This document shows positions 11,072 through 20,053 of a stretch of DNA of 64,000 bases, piece after piece (within the stretch, counting starts at the first letter, position 1; each line of letters opens with the position of its first letter). Under the pieces are notes generated by a model, which saw only the letters and a program-made list of their open reading frames with translations, was not told the DNA's origin and ran no database searches. The stretch covers positions 1-64,000 of the forward strand of contig NZ_GL877881.1 in the NCBI RefSeq assembly GCF_000194155.1, given 5' to 3'. This DNA is from Saccharopolyspora spinosa NRRL 18395 (lineage in GTDB: Bacteria > Actinomycetota > Actinomycetes > Mycobacteriales > Pseudonocardiaceae). The position numbers were made by a program, and so were the translations under genes.

Positions 11072-11374
11072 TCAGAGCCAGACCAGACGTAGGTCGCGGA
11101 TCAGCGAGAAGCACTCCAAGGCGCCTTCGGCCGAGTCGGAGTTACCCGTCCAGCCGTGTGGACTGACGAACACCGCCCCAGGGCCATCGCCGCCCGGAGC
11201 GCGGCTGAAGTCCAAGCCCCACAGGTAGATCCGCGCGTCGGCGACCTTGTCGCCGTCGCGGTCGACTTCGCACAGCGCGAACTTCTTCGGCTGGTAAGCC
11301 CCGGCCAAGTTCTCCAGCACCGCCGGAAGCTCGTCCTCACCCCAAGGCCCCAGCGAAAAACGCCGCTCCAACAT
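11072..11374 (-). CDS. hypothetical protein
   Basis: A 100-residue open frame with actinomycete-like codon use. The ATG at 11374 follows a GGGAGTGGGG ribosome site; an ATG at 11386 is also in frame. The sequence includes LPAVLENLAGAYQPKKFALCEVDRDGDKVADARIYLWGLDF and ends DLRLVWL. It is acidic, with no signal peptide or membrane helix. I do not recognise a family. It is divergent from the XRE regulator next door, with about 115 bases between them. Confidence 0.55.
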   Translation of the reverse strand: MLERRFSLGPWGEDELPAVLENLAGAYQPKKFALCEVDRDGDKVADARIYLWGLDFSRAPGGDGPGAVFVSPHGWTGNSDSAEGALECFSLIRDLRLVWL

Positions 11375-11488
11375 CCCCACTCCCATCTGCCGATCAACGT
11401 GGAGCCGAAGTTAGTAGGAATCATTCCAGTAGTCATTTACCGAATCAGGTGATCCGCTGGGGACGCTCAACCTGCCAGGATGTACCGC

Positions 11489-12346
11489 ATGCCGCCGTCA
11501 CTTGATCCACGCATGCTGCGCATCCAGCTCGGCATCGAACTGCGCCGCCTCCGCGAAAAAGCCGACCGAAGCACGTTCGAAGCGGCGGACGTCCTCGGCT
11601 GCAAGCAACCGAAGATCAGCAAGATCGAGAACGGCCACCAGGGCATGAAACCGGACGAAGTTGCGCAGCTGCTCGACTTCTACGGCGCGAGCGCGCAGCA
11701 ACGCAAGTACCTGCTCGGCCTCGCCGAACGCCTCCCCAAGCGAGCCAGGCCGAAGGTATACCACCGGGATTCCGTTCCGGACTGGGTGCAGCGATTCTTC
11801 GCTCTGGAATCCGAAGCAACGGAGATGAAGATCCACGAAGTGGAGATCATCACCGGTCTCTTCCAGACCGAGGACTACGCCCGCGCGACGTTGCGCGCAT
11901 GGGAGCCGGCTGCTGACCCTCGCCTGGTGGAGAGTCACGTAAAAACCCGGATGGAGCGACAAACAGTGCTCACGCGGACCAATCGGCCGCTGGACCTCCA
12001 GGTCGTGTTGGCCGAGTCCGCTTTGCACCGCGTTCAGGGCAGCAACGACGTCATGCGTGAGCAGCTCGATCACCTGCTGGAACTCTCGGAACTTCCGAAC
12101 GTTAGACTGCAGGTCTTGCCATTCGAATCGAGCCGGATTGCGGTTACTTCGTCAGTTGCGTTGATGCACCTCGCCGACCAGCAAGTTTCGACGGTGTATC
12201 TCGAAGACTTCTTTGGTGCCACTTACCTCTGGGAACCAGCGGAATACACTCGGTACAGCGTCATCTTCGAGCGACTGAGCACTGCCGCGCTGTCTGTTCC
12301 GGAGACGCGACAACTCATCGCTCGCATGATCAAGAAATACCGGTGA
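11489..12346 (+). CDS. XRE-family regulator with DUF5753 ligand-type domain
   Basis: A 285-residue protein of the very common actinomycete helix-turn-helix/DUF5753 type. Residues ~10-65 are the Xre helix-turn-helix (LGIELRRLREKADRSTFEAADVLGCKQPKISKIENG). The remainder (from about residue 90: WVQRFFALESEATEMKIHEVEIITGLFQTEDYARA, and the VQVLPFESSR-like part later) is DUF5753. AGGA lies eight bases before the ATG at 11489. It is followed after 15 bases by a DUF397 gene, the usual partner. Such pairs are known from Streptomyces development (BldB/WhiJ-like), but the target here is unknown. Confidence 0.88.
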   Translation: MPPSLDPRMLRIQLGIELRRLREKADRSTFEAADVLGCKQPKISKIENGHQGMKPDEVAQLLDFYGASAQQRKYLLGLAERLPKRARPKVYHRDSVPDWVQRFFALESEATEMKIHEVEIITGLFQTEDYARATLRAWEPAADPRLVESHVKTRMERQTVLTRTNRPLDLQVVLAESALHRVQGSNDVMREQLDHLLELSELPNVRLQVLPFESSRIAVTSSVALMHLADQQVSTVYLEDFFGATYLWEPAEYTRYSVIFERLSTAALSVPETRQLIARMIKKYR

Positions 12347-12649: not shown

Positions 12650-13669
12650 TCAGTTGGTGCCGGGAATCCTGATCGCGGCCAGTACGGAGTTGATCGCCGC
12701 CAGATCGACGGCGGCCGGATCGAATGATTCGCCGAGTACATCCTCGTATTGGTCCCGGTGGGGATGCCGGGGATCGGTCGTCGCGTCGAGAAGATCCTGG
12801 TAGCCGTAGATGCCGCCACAGTCCTCGGGCGGCCCGGCGCGATCGGCGTCCAGGCACACCACGTGGGCTTCGCCTTCGGCCGGCTCGATGGCCTCCACCA
12901 CAAGGTCATGGATCCAGTCGTCGCCGAAATCGTAGGTGTAGCGCACCCGGTCGCCCTTTCGCGGGGCGACGAGGCTGAGGGTCGCCCTGCGTTCGTCATG
13001 GACACCGCGCCTGGATCCACCGCTGACATCGGTGTAGCGCCTGCCCTTAGCCTCGAACTCATGCAGGTGCCAGCCCTCCCAGCCGAAGGAGACCTGGAGG
13101 ATGTGGTGCAGCTCGTCGAGCGGCGTGTCGCCGGGCAGGGAAAGCCTCCGCCAGATCAACGGTTCGCTGCCGACGATACCGACCTTGACCTGGTAAGTGG
13201 TGTGGCTTCGCCGGACACGTGTGTTCGCGGGCTCGTGTCCCAGGTCGTTCAGTGCCCGCCGGTAGGCGTCGAGGTCGACCAGTCTTGAGGCGGTCAGGGC
13301 GTCGTGCAGATGTTCGACGCCCACGCTCATCAGTTCGTGCAACACGTCATGCCGGTCCATCCCGAGATCCAGCATCCGACGGGCGGCGTGCCACGCTTCG
13401 ATCGGCTCACCGTCCCACAACTGGTTCGCGACCATCTCGTGCAGCGTCACGTGCAGCCGCGGGTTGACCCCGTCTATCTCCCCTTCCCACGCCGGATCCT
13501 CCAGCGCACGGCGGTATTCCGGGTGCTCTCCCTTGATCAGGATGCCGCGCTGGTCGGGGTCGGCGGGGTTGAGCCTGCCGAATTCCGCGCCCCGGAAGGT
13601 GGTGTCGCGCTCGGGCACGGCGAACAACCGCCGGTCCAGAATGTCCTTGACTTCCGTCTTGGACAACAC
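12650..13669 (-). CDS. DUF1841 plus plasmid pRiA4b ORF-3-like two-domain protein
   Basis: A 339-residue protein with two parts. Residues ~20-150 (RGAEFGRLNPADPDQRGILIKGEHPEYRRAL, HVTLHEMVANQLW, ARRMLDLGMDRHDVLHELMS) fit DUF1841. Residues ~160-335 (YQVKVGIVGSEPLIWRRLSLPGDTPLDELHHILQVSFGWEGWHLHEF, then YTYDFGDDWIHDLVVE and CGGIYGYQDLL) are the PRiA4_ORF3 family, known mainly from plasmids and islands and without a proven biochemical role. The start is GTG at 13669. It is divergent from the SNF2 ATPase gene, about 215 bases away, and could share regulation with it. Confidence 0.82.
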   Translation of the reverse strand: MLSKTEVKDILDRRLFAVPERDTTFRGAEFGRLNPADPDQRGILIKGEHPEYRRALEDPAWEGEIDGVNPRLHVTLHEMVANQLWDGEPIEAWHAARRMLDLGMDRHDVLHELMSVGVEHLHDALTASRLVDLDAYRRALNDLGHEPANTRVRRSHTTYQVKVGIVGSEPLIWRRLSLPGDTPLDELHHILQVSFGWEGWHLHEFEAKGRRYTDVSGGSRRGVHDERRATLSLVAPRKGDRVRYTYDFGDDWIHDLVVEAIEPAEGEAHVVCLDADRAGPPEDCGGIYGYQDLLDATTDPRHPHRDQYEDVLGESFDPAAVDLAAINSVLAAIRIPGTN

Positions 13670-13884
13670 CGGTGAAAGGTCACTCAGGTAAGCCGCCGCA
13701 TCGAATTCGCTCCCGGGCGACGGCGCTCCAGACAGCGATCCGGACGACCGCTCTTCCGCCAGCCTTTCGCGGGTTTGCGCTTGCGTCGCTTACTCACCGG
13801 ACTCACCTGGATAGCCTCCCACAACACCGTCGCAGCACCGCTGGGCAGGTCGACCGGTTGTCCCCGCTATCGGTCGTCCCCGCT

Positions 13885-15621
13885 ATGGTGGGCCCGATGT
13901 TGGTGACGCAGCGCGATGATCCCGGGGACGCCGGGCCGCAGGCCTTGCCCGAGACCTTGCTCAACCTACTCGGCCAGTTGTCCCCGGCCGCGCCCGTCGA
14001 CCCGGCCCGTTCGGCGCTGGTGGACCAGGCGGTCTCGGTCTTGCGGCGGCCCGGGTTCGACACGCTGTTGTCTTTGCCGCAGTTGGCATTCGAGCCGTTC
14101 GACTACCAGCGGGAGACCGCGTCCACCGTATTGCGGCGCATGAGAGGCCGGGCGATCCTCGCCGACGAGGTCGGGCTGGGCAAGACCATCGAAGCCGGAC
14201 TGATCGCCTCCGAGCTACGGCTTCGGGGCTTGGCCGACCGGACATTGGTGATCACCCCAGCTGGCCTGGTCGAGCAGTGGCGGGACGAACTGGAACGCAA
14301 GTTCGGCCTGCCCACCGCGATCGTAACCGGCAAGGATCGGGCGATCGATGAACGCGGAAACCGGCCGGTGCTGCTGGCCTCGCTGGCCGCGGCCCGCCGG
14401 GACCCGCTGAAGGCCGAACTCACCGGCGCCGGATGGGACCTGGTGATCGCCGACGAGGCACACCGGCTGCGGTCCGCGCGCAGCGCATCGGGAAAACTGA
14501 TCCGGGCGTTGAGTGCGCGGTTCCTCCTGCTGTTGACGGCCACCCCGGTGGAAAACCGTCTGCAGGATCTGTACGAGATGATTTCCCTTGTCGCACCCGG
14601 ATTGCTCGGCACACCGGCGCAGTTCCGCGCCCGGCACGTCGCCGCCGGTGGCGACGTGAACAGCCCTCGCAATCTGGCGGAGCTGCGGAGCAGGACCCGC
14701 CAGGTGATGGTGCGCCACCGGCGCAGCGAAGTCGCGCTACGGCTACCGCAACGCCTGGCCGAGACCACGCTGGTCACCCCGGACACCGACGAGCAGGCTC
14801 TGTATGCGGAGCTGACCGAGCGAATCCGAGTCGAGGCAAAGGAAGCGCCCGCCGCACGGCGACTGGCGCTGCGCGCGGTCGCTAGGCTGGCCGGTTCCAC
14901 ACCGGCGGCGGCCGCGCCGACCATGACCAAACTCGGCTGGACCGATCTGGCGGCCACGGCGAAGTCGATCACCTATCCGGCCAAACTTCGCGTGCTGACG
15001 GCGAAGCTGGGCGAGTACGCGGCGCGCGGGGAGAAGGTGCTGGTGTTCACCGCTTTCCGGCAGACCCTGGACACGGTCGCCGAAGCGGCACGGGCGGCGG
15101 GGATCAGCGCCGTCGTCTACCACGGCGGCCTGCCCCGGGCAGAGAAGGAGCGGGTGATCGGAGCCTTCCGCGACACCGAACAGGTGTTGCTGTCCACGGA
15201 ATCCGCCGGCGAAGGCCGCAACCTCCAGTTCTGTCACGTCATGATCAACCTCGACTTGCCGTGGAACCCCATGCAGATCGAACAGCGCCTCGGCCGTCTG
15301 CACCGGGTCGGCCAGACCCACGATGTGCTGCTGACCAACCTGGCCTGCCGGGGAACCATCGAGGAACGGGTCTTGCACGTTCTGGAGACCAAAATCAACA
15401 TGTTCGAGCTCGTCGTCGGGGAACTCGACATGATCCTTGGCCGGATCGACGAGGATTTCGACTTCGAAAAGGCGGTGTTCGAGGCCTTCGCCTCGACCGA
15501 GAACGAATCCGCATTCGCCCGCCGCATGGACGAAATCGGCGAAGAACTCGCGGCGGCACGCACGTCCTACCTGGCGGATCGGCGCAATGTCGATGCCCTG
15601 GCCGGGGAGGACAACGAATGA
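13885..15621 (+). CDS. SNF2/RapA-like helicase-type ATPase
   Basis: A 578-residue superfamily 2 ATPase. Motif I is DEVGLGKTIEA at residues 94-104, motif II is DEAH at 190-193, motif III is LLTATP. The C-terminal lobe shows VLVFTAFRQTLDTVAEAA, LSTESAGEGRNLQFCHVMINLDLPWNPMQIEQRLGRLHRVGQ, which is the SNF2/HepA pattern. There is no obvious extra DNA-binding domain, so targeting may come from its partner. The start is ATG 13885 or 13897. It overlaps the next gene by four bases (ATGA), so both are made together. Such ATPases move along or remodel double-stranded DNA; a defence or repair role is possible but unproven. Confidence 0.85.
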   Translation: MVGPMLVTQRDDPGDAGPQALPETLLNLLGQLSPAAPVDPARSALVDQAVSVLRRPGFDTLLSLPQLAFEPFDYQRETASTVLRRMRGRAILADEVGLGKTIEAGLIASELRLRGLADRTLVITPAGLVEQWRDELERKFGLPTAIVTGKDRAIDERGNRPVLLASLAAARRDPLKAELTGAGWDLVIADEAHRLRSARSASGKLIRALSARFLLLLTATPVENRLQDLYEMISLVAPGLLGTPAQFRARHVAAGGDVNSPRNLAELRSRTRQVMVRHRRSEVALRLPQRLAETTLVTPDTDEQALYAELTERIRVEAKEAPAARRLALRAVARLAGSTPAAAAPTMTKLGWTDLAATAKSITYPAKLRVLTAKLGEYAARGEKVLVFTAFRQTLDTVAEAARAAGISAVVYHGGLPRAEKERVIGAFRDTEQVLLSTESAGEGRNLQFCHVMINLDLPWNPMQIEQRLGRLHRVGQTHDVLLTNLACRGTIEERVLHVLETKINMFELVVGELDMILGRIDEDFDFEKAVFEAFASTENESAFARRMDEIGEELAAARTSYLADRRNVDALAGEDNE

Positions 15622-17525
15622 CCAGCCGCCGCAACCCCGCCTTCGCTTTCTGGCTGGACTACCTGGACTCCCGGGGCGGGCTGTGGGAACCCTCGGGCGA
15701 GGCGGTGCTGACGGTTCTGCCCGACCAGTTGGCCGCCGCGCACGACCTGCCGGAGTCCACGCTGATCACCGATGATCCGGACATCGCCCGGGAAGATGGC
15801 GTGCAGTTCCTCGGTGCCGGACATCCCGAGATCGACTCGGCCGCCGGAGCCGTCATCGACGCCGCCGACGTCGGGACACTCACCCTGCCCCACGGCTCGA
15901 AACCGATGTCCACCGAAGACCTGCTTGCGTTGATCCGCGACCGCATGCCCGTCGACCACGGCCGGATCGACGCGACCGGCGCACCGATCCGGACCCATCG
16001 TGCGACGCTGCGACTGGGTGCGCTGGTCAGCCACACCGTCTCGGCCGAGGAGCAGTTCACCGAAGTCTCCGAATGCATGCTCGACGTCGCGTCGCTGATC
16101 GCCTGGCCCGAGCACGCCGCGGCCCGGGTACGAGACGTCATGGCCGCCACCGACACCGGACCAGCGCGCCACATCCCGGGAAACGCCCTGATCCCAGCGC
16201 TAGCCGCCACGCATTCGGTACTCGACGAGGCGGCCGTGTCGCGAGGCCGAGTACTGGCCCAGACTGCGGATGCCGAGCGCGCCGCCGAGACCACCCGGGC
16301 CAACGAGTACTACGCCGCGGCGCTCGCCGCCATCGAAAAACGCCGCACCGATGCCGATCCAGACCGCGCGGCCCTGCTGGACGCCCGCGCCCAGGCCACG
16401 ATCGCCGAGCGTGATCGACGGCTGGCCGAGATCGGCGAGAAATACCGCCACCAGCACAAGCTGCGGCCCTACCGGCTGCACATCATCGACCTGCCCGCCT
16501 GGCGTCTGGCCACCGATATCCGACGTGGCGACCGCCGCTGGCCCGTCGTCTTCGACTACCTGCCATTGCTAGGTGACCTCGCTCCCACTCGCTGCCCGAA
16601 CTGCGACGTCCGCGCGCCGCTGGTGGCGACGAAGACCCACCTCGGTTGCAGTGCCTGTTCCCCTGTCAAAACGACGCCGCCCCCGGCTGCGCCTTCGCCA
16701 CCATCCCGGAACCAAGCCGCCCAGCCGACGCGGGAAAATCCCGGCAAGACACCTAAAACGGTGCCTACGAAAGAGAAGGCGGCTGCACCCCCGCGAGCCG
16801 ACCGGAAGCAGCCTGTCGCCCAGCCGGTTCTGCCGGGCAAGGCCGAGGAACTGGAAGCCGCGGCATTCTGGAACTACATCGGCGCGGGTGAAAACCGGAA
16901 ACTCGCCCGGCTCATCGCTCCGGACTCTCCGCTGGCCGCTCTCACCCGCCTCTACGGCAGCGCCGGCGCCCTGCGCGGAATCGGCGTCCCCACCGGCCAC
17001 ACGCCGATGAAATTCACCTGCCAGAACTACGACCATCCGGTCTCCGGACAACGCGGCGGCACCGCGGGCACGCTTTACACCGACCATGGCACTTTCCCGT
17101 ACCTGCTGCTGTGGTCACCCGATCGGCTGCTGGAAGAAATCTTCCCCTACGCGGCCCCCTGGCATCTCGGGATGGCCGCCCGGATGCGACTCAAGCCAAT
17201 CACCCACGCTCCACCCGCACATCACAAGCTCGACACCGTGGCCGGGCTCCTCCTCGACCGCACGACCGCACGCCACGGCCTGACCTTCACCGCCCGCTGC
17301 CTGGCGGCCTGGTGGCGCCTCCCGAGCCCCGAAGACCTCCTCACCCGGTTCTCACCCCGGGTCATCGCGGCAACCGTCGACCGGGCGATCCGCTACTGGT
17401 CCGGCACCGGAAACGCCACCTACCCCGACGCAGCCGTTGCCTTCAACGCGGACGAGTCCGCCGTCCGCAAGGCCACCGCCGTGCTCCAGAAACAACTCCG
17501 ACTCGACAGCACCCGGAACTGGTGA
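15618..17525 (+). CDS. zinc-ribbon/coiled-coil partner of the SNF2-like ATPase
   Basis: A 635-residue protein I do not recognise as a named family. Residues 1-200 form an acidic N-terminal region. Residues ~215-285 are strongly helical and charged (DPDRAALLDARAQATIAERD), a likely coiled coil. Residues 326-347 carry CPNC...CSAC, a probable zinc ribbon. A Pro/Lys-rich linker follows (about 350-405), then a C-terminal domain with aromatic motifs (FWNYIGAGENRKLARLIAP, PYLLLWSPDRLLEEIFPYAAPWHLGMAARMRLKP). The ATG overlaps the ATPase stop, suggesting a stoichiometric complex. No nuclease motif is evident. What it binds is unknown. Confidence 0.75.
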   Translation: MTSRRNPAFAFWLDYLDSRGGLWEPSGEAVLTVLPDQLAAAHDLPESTLITDDPDIAREDGVQFLGAGHPEIDSAAGAVIDAADVGTLTLPHGSKPMSTEDLLALIRDRMPVDHGRIDATGAPIRTHRATLRLGALVSHTVSAEEQFTEVSECMLDVASLIAWPEHAAARVRDVMAATDTGPARHIPGNALIPALAATHSVLDEAAVSRGRVLAQTADAERAAETTRANEYYAAALAAIEKRRTDADPDRAALLDARAQATIAERDRRLAEIGEKYRHQHKLRPYRLHIIDLPAWRLATDIRRGDRRWPVVFDYLPLLGDLAPTRCPNCDVRAPLVATKTHLGCSACSPVKTTPPPAAPSPPSRNQAAQPTRENPGKTPKTVPTKEKAAAPPRADRKQPVAQPVLPGKAEELEAAAFWNYIGAGENRKLARLIAPDSPLAALTRLYGSAGALRGIGVPTGHTPMKFTCQNYDHPVSGQRGGTAGTLYTDHGTFPYLLLWSPDRLLEEIFPYAAPWHLGMAARMRLKPITHAPPAHHKLDTVAGLLLDRTTARHGLTFTARCLAAWWRLPSPEDLLTRFSPRVIAATVDRAIRYWSGTGNATYPDAAVAFNADESAVRKATAVLQKQLRLDSTRNW

Positions 17526-17730
17526 ATCCGTAGCCCCTACCGAGGCGCACGCGGACTCTCGTGGTCGTCGCGGTTGTCCACTACGCATGCCCGCAGTCGC
17601 GGCATGTGCAGGACATGTTGGCCGCGGTTGTGTTGCGCCACCGCCCCGGCCTTAACGAGGCGGTCACGCGCCCGGCTTTTCGGCACCCCGCTTCGAGATC
17701 GATGGGGCCCGACCGGCATCATCGTTGCCG

Positions 17731-18315
17731 ATGACGATGACCCCACCCCGCCCCGGCAAGGTGGCCCACCGCGATTCAACGTCGAGTCCGGTCGGTCGGC
17801 GGGTGCGGTTGCGGCAGGTCGAGCCTGCGGACCGGCGCACCCTGATGCGGTTCGACCGGGAGTCCTCGCGCGAACACTTCCCGAGATTCGACGGATTCCG
17901 GCATTGGGCGGCGCACCGGGCGAACCACCCGGAATCCGGCGACGACATCCAGCTCGCCATCGAGACCCTGCACGACCGAACCCTGGTCGGCTCGATGTTC
18001 ACCAGCCAGGCCGAACCCGGGTCCGGCCGGTTCAGCTACGGCATCGGGATCGGCCCGCAGCACCGTCGGCGCGGCTACGCCGCCGACGCGATCCGCACCC
18101 TGCTCGCGCACATGTTCGGGCGGGGCCGCTACCGCAAATGCGAGGTCGGGATCTACGACGGCAACCTCGCTTCCCTTGCGCTGCACGGCAAACTCGGCTT
18201 CCGCGAGGAAGGCCGCCTGCGCGACCCGGAGTTCCTGTGCGGCGGGGCCCAGTACCTCGTGCTGATGGGTATCACCGCGACCGAGTTCGGGGCCCACAAC
18301 TTCACTCGCCGATGA
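17731..18315 (+). CDS. GNAT-family N-acetyltransferase
   Basis: About 194 residues from the ATG at 17731 (a TTG at 17725 and an ATG at 17737 are also possible). RLRQVEPADRRTLMRFDRE starts the fold, and the acetyl-CoA loop is IGIGPQHRRRGYAADAIRTLLAHMF (Q/R-x-x-R-G-Y-A). The C-terminus KCEVGIYDGNLASLALHGKLGFREEGRLRD is typical of RimJ/RimL-like enzymes that acetylate N-termini or small amines. The substrate cannot be told. Its 3' end overlaps that of the convergent ATPase gene by 14 bases. Confidence 0.85.
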   Translation: MTMTPPRPGKVAHRDSTSSPVGRRVRLRQVEPADRRTLMRFDRESSREHFPRFDGFRHWAAHRANHPESGDDIQLAIETLHDRTLVGSMFTSQAEPGSGRFSYGIGIGPQHRRRGYAADAIRTLLAHMFGRGRYRKCEVGIYDGNLASLALHGKLGFREEGRLRDPEFLCGGAQYLVLMGITATEFGAHNFTRR

Positions 18316-20053
18316 CCGGCGGCGCCGACCCGTGCGTGCCGCCGCCGAAGAAGTCCTCCGTGCCCTGGTACAGGTGCAACGCCCCTCGGTGCTCCTGATC
18401 TTCGAAGGCGCGCGAACCACCACCGGAGAGGGCGATTCCGCCGTCCAGCGGCTGGCCGTAGCCGGACTGCTCCAACCGCCGCCGGAGATACCGCTGCAAC
18501 CCGGTGAGCTCCAATGCACCGTTGTTCGCGACGAAGCGATGCAGATCCCGCACGCATGCGACGACGACTGCTGCGGCGGAATCCCTTGCGGCTTCGACGA
18601 ACATGTCGAACCAGGACTGCGCGGTCGCGGCATCGACGTCACACGCCGCCGCGCAGTGCTCCAGGGCGGCCGGCAACCAGCGGTGCGCAGCCCAGCACAG
18701 CCGGTGGTAGAACTCCTCGACCAGCAGCGCCCGCCATTCCCAGTCGTACCAGGCGGATTCACCCGGCAACGCGAGTTCCTCGCGGCACCGCTGGAAGTGC
18801 TCGGCAAGCGTTTGGTGGCGCTGCCGGAAGCGCCGCGGCGCGCGGCCGCGTTCGTAGCGCACCATCGTCTCCCGGACCACCTGGTGGTACTGGAGACGGC
18901 CCTGGTGTTCGTGGACGAACGGCCGGTCGCGCAGCCACCGGAACAGATCGCCGGTGGCATTCTCGGAGCCCAACGCGGCCAGGACGTCTTCGTCCAGCGC
19001 CCGGGGAAGCGCCGCCAGCACGGCGTCGTCGCGGCGCTGCTGCTCGGGAACCCAGTTCAGGAATCGCGCGACCGCCATACCCGTCGGGTCGTGCGCATCG
19101 TGCCCTGACTCAGCCAGGGTCGCGACCAGCAGCGGAAGCCCACCTGACAGTTCGACCACGACGTCCACGAACTCCGGATCGCGGACGCCCCTGCGGTCCA
19201 GCAGGGTTCTGGCTTCCTCGGAAGTGAACGGGTCGAGCCGCCAGGTCACGCTGATCGACGAGTACTCGCCCCAGTTGTTGGGATCCAGCGGGTGCTGTCC
19301 GGCGATGCCGAGGAGCAGGGTGAGGGGAAGTTCGCCGTAGTGCCCTTGCAGCATGCGCAGCAGCCACGGCTCGATGACCTCGGAGGTGCGCTCGTAGTTG
19401 TCGAACAGCATCACCAACTGCCGGTGCTGGGCGATTTTCCGCAGGTCGTCGACCAGGAACGGGGTGAGCTCCTCGACGGGCGACAGCAGCAACCGGACAT
19501 CGGCCTGGCTGCCGAACTTCCGCGCGAAGTAGGCCCGGCACTGCTCCATCCACGCCTGGAGCTTCTCCGGTGGGACGGCGTCGGCAACCGGTCCGAGCCC
19601 CGGCGCGGCCATACGCACCACACCGAGGCCGAACCGGATCGCCGTCGACATCACCAGTTCCCGGGCCTCCGACGGCGCCTGCGGATCGGACAGCACGTCG
19701 TCGTGCCTGCGTTCGTATTCGGCGAGGCGCTGGGAGAAGCCGCGGGTCTCGCCGCCCTGGCCGGCCAGTTGGCGGGAGATCGCGCCCATCGCCGCCACCA
19801 GGTTGGACTCGTTGTCGTCGGTGACGGCGACCAGCGCGCCGTGCTGCAGCGAGATCTCCCGGAGCTGGCGCAGCAGGAACGTCTTGCCAATACCCGCCTG
19901 CCCATGCAGGCCGAACACGAACTTGCGTTGCACCGGCGGCAATTGCAGGTTCGTGCGGAAGATGCCGCACTGCAGGCCGCGACCGACGAACTCGCCGCCC
20001 TGCCGCTGCCGCAGGATCTCCTGCAGGCTCCGTGCGCCCCCAGCTCCGACCAC
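18302..20053 (-). CDS. STAND-type AAA+ ATPase
   Basis: A 583-residue protein with an N-terminal P-loop NTPase. Walker A is GQAGIGKT near residue 52, and the likely Walker B is LVMLFDNYE near residue 215. LPLTLLLGIAGQHPL and LSGGLPLLVATLAES resemble the sensor and GLPL motifs of STAND signalling ATPases. An all-helical C-terminal half (residues ~330-520) would be the winged-helix and repeat region. The last ~60 residues are Gly-rich and unlike a domain, so the C-terminus may be truncated. STAND proteins often act as sensors in regulation or phage defence; no effector domain is visible. The start is GTG 20053 with AGGA about nine bases upstream. Confidence 0.75.
   Translation of the reverse strand: MVGAGGARSLQEILRQRQGGEFVGRGLQCGIFRTNLQLPPVQRKFVFGLHGQAGIGKTFLLRQLREISLQHGALVAVTDDNESNLVAAMGAISRQLAGQGGETRGFSQRLAEYERRHDDVLSDPQAPSEARELVMSTAIRFGLGVVRMAAPGLGPVADAVPPEKLQAWMEQCRAYFARKFGSQADVRLLLSPVEELTPFLVDDLRKIAQHRQLVMLFDNYERTSEVIEPWLLRMLQGHYGELPLTLLLGIAGQHPLDPNNWGEYSSISVTWRLDPFTSEEARTLLDRRGVRDPEFVDVVVELSGGLPLLVATLAESGHDAHDPTGMAVARFLNWVPEQQRRDDAVLAALPRALDEDVLAALGSENATGDLFRWLRDRPFVHEHQGRLQYHQVVRETMVRYERGRAPRRFRQRHQTLAEHFQRCREELALPGESAWYDWEWRALLVEEFYHRLCWAAHRWLPAALEHCAAACDVDAATAQSWFDMFVEAARDSAAAVVVACVRDLHRFVANNGALELTGLQRYLRRRLEQSGYGQPLDGGIALSGGGSRAFEDQEHRGALHLYQGTEDFFGGGTHGSAPPVIGE

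Follow-up and report, generated by a model that had tools for sequence, protein, structure and literature searches.

The closest described relatives of the gene pair reported here are SNF2-type helicases built as one chain. RapA (HepA) of E. coli is an RNA polymerase (RNAP) recycling factor of 968 amino acids (aa); BrxHII of BREX type 3 measured 969-988 aa in three proteins examined, and HmaA, a BREX-related (BR) helicase, 1129-1195 aa in eight. Type 1 BR helicases usually carry an added C-terminal nuclease, according to the available part of PMC12839542. In DISARM, DrmA-DrmB is a split YprA-type helicase in which an adjacent gene of its own encodes the zinc-binding accessory half (PMC12458937, available part). 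We analysed a window of 64,000 nucleotides, the whole stretch considered here, from Saccharopolyspora spinosa NRRL 18395 (contig NZ_GL877881.1, positions 1-64,000), in which a SNF2 ATPase gene (subunit A) overlaps the gene of a 635-aa partner (subunit B). Comparison of sequences and predicted structures makes it very probable that the two proteins are halves of one RapA/BrxHII/HmaA-type motor, split into two genes. The pair is real, conserved and unnamed, and we regard it as a split version of a motor family already known, new as a variant but not as a whole system. Its features are as follows.

13897..15621, + strand: SNF2 ATPase of 574 aa, with the motor core starting near residue 70
15618..15621, + strand: ATGA stop/start overlap of ATPase and partner, seen in the sequence
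15618..16565, + strand: first half of the partner, matching a RapA-type C-terminal half (hhalign to the C-terminal region of HmaA and BrxH, AlphaFold2 (AF2) model, VIA-align to RapA)
16593..16658, + strand: zinc ribbon CPNC-x14-CSAC, partner residues 326-347, from sequence conservation
16671..16835, + strand: disordered Pro/Lys/Ala linker, partner residues 352-406, from low predicted local distance difference test (pLDDT) values in the AF2 model
16839..17174, + strand: NTF2-like domain, tentative, partner residues ~408-519
17226..17522, + strand: cyclin/TFIIB-like helical domain with C-terminal Trp, tentative, partner residues ~537-635

The first half of the partner resembles the C-terminal half of single-chain motors. 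Residues 1-295 of the partner model superpose on RapA 708-968 (VIA-align), and the last 260 residues of RapA also align weakly with the partner by sequence, in the same register as the model. A combined partner profile matched three BrxH proteins (hhalign probability 95.7, E 1e-8) and HmaA (probability 86, E 5e-6); these profiles were built after comparisons with single-chain sequences taken singly had been insignificant (best E 0.0024, probability 12). The partner thus has the spacer and C-terminal domain (CTD) fold of the RapA type. Two DrmD-like proteins did not match the partner, and the C-terminal half of DrmD was rejected as its source. By sequence and model, we show a correspondence with a RapA-type C-terminal half, a split motor, a gene overlap and an accessory distribution.

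The ATPase is a motor with little beyond it. An open frame spanning 13672-15621 encodes it, and ATG 13897 is its likely start. The first-pass annotation, read from the sequence alone, had described complete SNF2 motifs; DEVGLGKT, DEAH and GRLHRVGQ are indeed all present, and Pfam places SNF2-rel_dom at residues 70-312 (E 3.6e-33) and Helicase_C at residues 369-472 (E 2.5e-23). The C-terminal spacer and CTD of RapA, BrxHII and HmaA are absent from it. Its best PDB sequence matches are RapA, in which the motor begins at residue 157 versus 70 in the ATPase, leaving 156 and 69 residues, respectively, ahead of the match. BrxHI, DrmD and HmaA are its top defence-model matches, covering only core pieces, and its NCBIfam scores fall far under the curated cut-offs. 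Such low scores may be explained by the split, since the family models were derived from single long chains. Viral contigs searched with the ATPase gave no match.

The partner gene runs from ATG 15618 to the stop at 17525. It overlaps the ATPase gene by four bases, as had been annotated, and this arrangement suggests translational coupling. It is more than chance, since 20 of the 26 related loci share an overlap of four bases; the others have gaps between -11 and +5, with start codons of our choosing throughout. The coiled coil, ribbon and linker read from the sequence also held: the AF2 model has two long helices (188-244 and 248-275), and pLDDT is below 50 across linker residues 352-406, residue 370 excepted. 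The CPNC...CSAC ribbon is invariant in all 22 aligned actinobacterial-type rows, and its pattern occurs in 26 of 27 actinobacterial-type partners; CxxC is absent from 12/12 scanned single-chain relatives, RapA among them. For the whole partner, searches of Pfam, PADLOC, NCBIfam and PDB sequences gave nothing significant, the best Pfam match being PF12760 (E 0.27), and the viral contigs and phage records searched had no match; in BFVD nothing reached E 0.001 or better among 50 of 226 matches listed. Whether the partner belongs to a well-characterised family, a question raised by the first-pass annotation, is half answered in the affirmative: its first half corresponds to RapA's C-terminal half. 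Similarly, its proposed role in targeting or regulating the motor gives way, for the first half, to that of a motor half, while the added domains may choose the target.

The two genes occur together across diverse genomes. An alignment of three partners, used as query against 84,980 species genomes, found 26 partner loci, with titles including Mycobacterium, Streptomyces, Frankia, Pseudonocardia, Nitriliruptoraceae, Acidimicrobiaceae and one acidobacterial metagenome-assembled genome. An ATPase homolog (52-83% identity) lies immediately upstream in 26/26. Searches of plasmids and genome contigs with the single partner sequence found no relatives, which were reached solely through the ATPase search and the three-sequence alignment. 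On plasmids, the ATPase search led to cyanobacteria, Rhodovastum and haloarchaea, where all but one of the 23 top-ranked SNF2 rows have a detectable partner. Partner searches with a cyanobacterial and a haloarchaeal query returned 6 and 16 plasmid records, and all 22 adjoin a SNF2 match, judged by coordinates. Ten extracted plasmid partners measure 342-397 aa, and plasmid-partner profiles match columns 14-331 (probability 97.6) and 10-350 (probability 95.8) of the actinobacterial partner (hhalign). Thus the split form is present in diverse bacteria and haloarchaea, and the possibility that the genes rarely occur together, which the first-pass annotation had named as a refutation, fails on both genomes and plasmids.

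Individual loci depart from this pattern. A contig titled Melainabacteria equals G032:C388, which comes from the family of the host, both in length (5505 bases) and in its identities to the pair (L052 and L008); it is probably a mislabelled copy of G032:C388. The partners at L046:7980-9050 and L048:8007-9110 (356 and 367 aa) stop shortly past the zinc ribbon, as non-actinobacterial forms do. The Halorhabdus tiamatea partner (L025:6701-9988) is annotated as 1095 aa, and its long C-terminal extension has no Pfam or PADLOC match.

Pair motors and single-chain motors separate when HmaA is included and RapA is not. In a tree that contained HmaA but neither RapA (end branch 6) nor seven near-duplicates, one branch divided the 24 pair motors from 11 single-chain motors (support 96/93). 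An earlier tree with RapA, from which HmaA had been dropped by a motif rule, did not separate the pair motors as one group; the SNF2 proteins L038 and L049 are in neither tree. From these sequences, a single split of the motor or, equally, a fusion in the single-chain forms is plausible, though not proven. The pair is present in 2/22 genomes of the host's genus, and a partner match in 4/61 relatives and 2/101 genomes of the order, G000 being included in all three counts. G000 (L011:8430-8800) and G005 (L010:8600-9000) also hold a decayed second copy elsewhere in the genome, beside a pRiA4b paralog, in which ATPase N-terminal coding sequence adjoins partner C-terminal coding sequence.

The site in the window varies between related genomes. 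The neighbours of the pair are as follows.

11480-12346, + strand: HTH_31/DUF5753 regulator (XRE gene), by Pfam
12650..13669, - strand: PRiA4_ORF3 (PF07929) protein, by Pfam, an occasional companion outside the core
17725-18315: gene labelled GNAT by the earlier reader from the sequence alone
18302-20053, - strand: STAND-like AAA ATPase, weak, under Pfam cut-offs

The PRiA4_ORF3 protein, the regulator and, weakly, the STAND-like ATPase therefore agree with the first-pass annotation; its DUF397 gene does not, as the one frame tested (11072-11386, - strand) has no Pfam match. Ten other same-genus genomes have both flanking genes within 15 kb on a single contig (0.9-11.7 kb apart), and the ATPase, partner and pRiA4b genes are absent between them; in the remaining genomes besides G005, the flanks lie on separate contigs or far apart, or one is missing. 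Because these ten pair-less genomes hold the GNAT gene (10/10), the STAND ATPase (5/10) and the XRE gene (3/10), we regard all three as site furniture rather than companions of the pair, and the case once made for a defence or island neighbourhood in the window is not supported. The four window neighbours examined with PADLOC and Pfam include neither BREX genes (BrxC, PglZ, PglX) nor DUF499/DUF1156; PADLOC covered these four neighbours of the pair in the window. In G005, the same variable interval (L007:3919-8496) is occupied by a helicase of 1525 residues whose C-terminal domain is REase_MTES_1575; this helicase matches PDC-S37 and Mokosh-type candidate defence models.

An association with defence genes appears in haloarchaea but is not shown for actinobacteria. 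DUF499 and/or DUF1156 genes lie near the pair in 5/9 haloarchaeal loci opened, and all five scanned DUF499/DUF1156 proteins have partial HmaB or HmaC matches. In some haloarchaea the pair thus seems to stand in for HmaA as the helicase of a BREX-related system. The four other loci include two with a Mrr-type restriction endonuclease gene nearby and one with PD-(D/E)XK and UvrD genes. Among 125 neighbours of the actinobacterial copies, 84 PADLOC models had one match or more (25 listed) but none exceeded 3, and the commonest Pfam families are ordinary. This survey covered 125 of 126 listed open reading frames, with L030, L033, L036 and L051 omitted as near-duplicates or too short; frames were chosen by a GC-frame rule, so that gene calls are approximate, and the counts stand without matched control loci. 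A defence island around the actinobacterial copies was not shown. At L040:10057-10755, a relative of the Uma2-type putative endonuclease L039:11389-12069, which likewise lies near a pair, follows the partner stop by 28 bases. On the haloarchaeal plasmids L015, L026 and L027, annotated PD-(D/E)XK nuclease family and UvrD-helicase genes lie downstream of the pair. A TATA-box-binding protein gene is annotated directly after the BrxHII-type helicase gene at haloarchaeal L020:6836-7384 and L063:3787-4332, abutting in one and overlapping by four bases in the other; it is absent in L062.

We propose that subunit A is the ATP-driven motor, and that subunit B would provide the spacer (a degenerate nuclease fold) and coiled-coil CTD that single-chain relatives hold in cis. 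B would also bring the zinc ribbon, to which this lineage adds a flexible tether bearing an NTF2-like and a cyclin-like domain. Packed on A as the CTD is on the motor in RapA, B may form a complex that tracks along duplex DNA, with its added domains selecting the target. Most likely, the pair would serve as a DNA-surveillance motor of the type seen in BREX/Hma/DISARM helicases, accessory in nature and spread horizontally, which may engage foreign DNA and then strip it or pass it to a nuclease; in actinobacteria it might act alone or with nucleases encoded elsewhere. As a whole explanation, a split motor with a DNA-surveillance or defence use is somewhat favoured. Taken by itself, the defence use is our leading guess because the haloarchaeal setting, with its DUF499/DUF1156 and restriction genes, is the best lead; we rate it about as strongly for as against, with a RapA-like transcription role next.

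In that role, the pair would be a split transcription factor that docks on RNAP by way of its ribbon and TFIIB-like cyclin domain; it would recycle stalled polymerase or remove it, serving the host or a plasmid rather than defence. The RapA matches of both subunits favour it, and the ribbon and cyclin-like fold recall TFIIB. Nevertheless, the sparse distribution and the 22 plasmid records do not fit housekeeping, the early start of the motor seems to leave little room for a counterpart of RapA's RNAP-contacting N-terminal domain (PMC8501970, available part), and the ATPase scores 185.3 bits against the RapA model; we consider this role unlikely. A related idea, that the actinobacterial partner is a TFIIB-like recruiting subunit, in which tethered ribbon and cyclin box steer the SNF2 translocase to transcription complexes (e.g., a phage- or plasmid-directed RNAP on foreign DNA) and dislodge them, is a long shot; if true, it would add a so far undescribed kind of defence machine, one targeted at transcription.

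Alternatively, the pair could be a maintenance or DNA-repair motor carried for the benefit of plasmids or other mobile DNA. Partition, relaxase, integrase or transposase genes lie near it in all three cyanobacterial plasmid loci opened, and the variable site in the window would suit such cargo. However, no mobile-element gene is a constant neighbour in 29 genome contexts and many haloarchaeal copies adjoin restriction-type genes, which makes this quite unlikely. A three-gene system that includes the divergent pRiA4b-ORF3 protein would account for the four contexts in which PRiA4_ORF3 is beside the pair or close by (the window, G058, L039 and L043), and for its place next to the decayed copies of G000 and G005. 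However, there are 29 contexts in all (a fifth, L035, has a weak match), and a deletion in G005 cuts the pRiA4b gene while leaving the pair intact. On these counts we rejected pRiA4b as a third component, a highly improbable one.

The split motor has not been named before in the sources searched. As the first-pass annotation supposed, no system with exactly this pair was found in the defence and family libraries and open-access literature searched, and the available parts of that literature (including PMC12839542, PMC12458937, PMC4158269 and PMC8501970) describe no split SNF2 helicase of this kind. Our results offer an identity for “hypothetical proteins” that bacteria and archaea encode beside short SNF2 genes: apparently they are the missing motor half. 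Because that half can be removed, swapped or purified as its own subunit, this natural split of a RapA/BrxHII-type helicase offers a way into the role of the C-terminal half, a question shared by BREX, Hma and RapA.

Each known system shares part of this architecture. RapA has the SNF2 core and a final stretch of 260 residues that aligns with partner residues 1-295, but it has a longer N-terminal region, no CxxC and no linker/NTF2/cyclin-like extension. Its arrangement of motor, spacer and CTD in one chain differs from two genes recurring in 26/26 loci, and the ATPase does not reach the 576-bit cut-off of NCBIfam PRK04914 (RapA). BrxHII agrees in its order of domains, counted from the motor (PMC12839542, available part), but lacks CxxC; the ATPase matches it in core pieces only (180.2 bits), whereas L020 matches nearly end to end (570.7 bits). 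HmaA has the same C-terminal modules as the partner, and some haloarchaeal pairs adjoin DUF499/DUF1156 genes partly matching HmaC/HmaB, but HmaA is one chain. DrmD has a related motor core, but the ATPase scores of 232.5 and 222.2 bits lie far under the curated cut-offs of 950 and 610. With DrmA-DrmB the likeness is one of analogy, judging from the available text: a split helicase with a zinc-binding half, but of another helicase family (YprA/DUF1998), and the partner has no DUF1998 match in Pfam.
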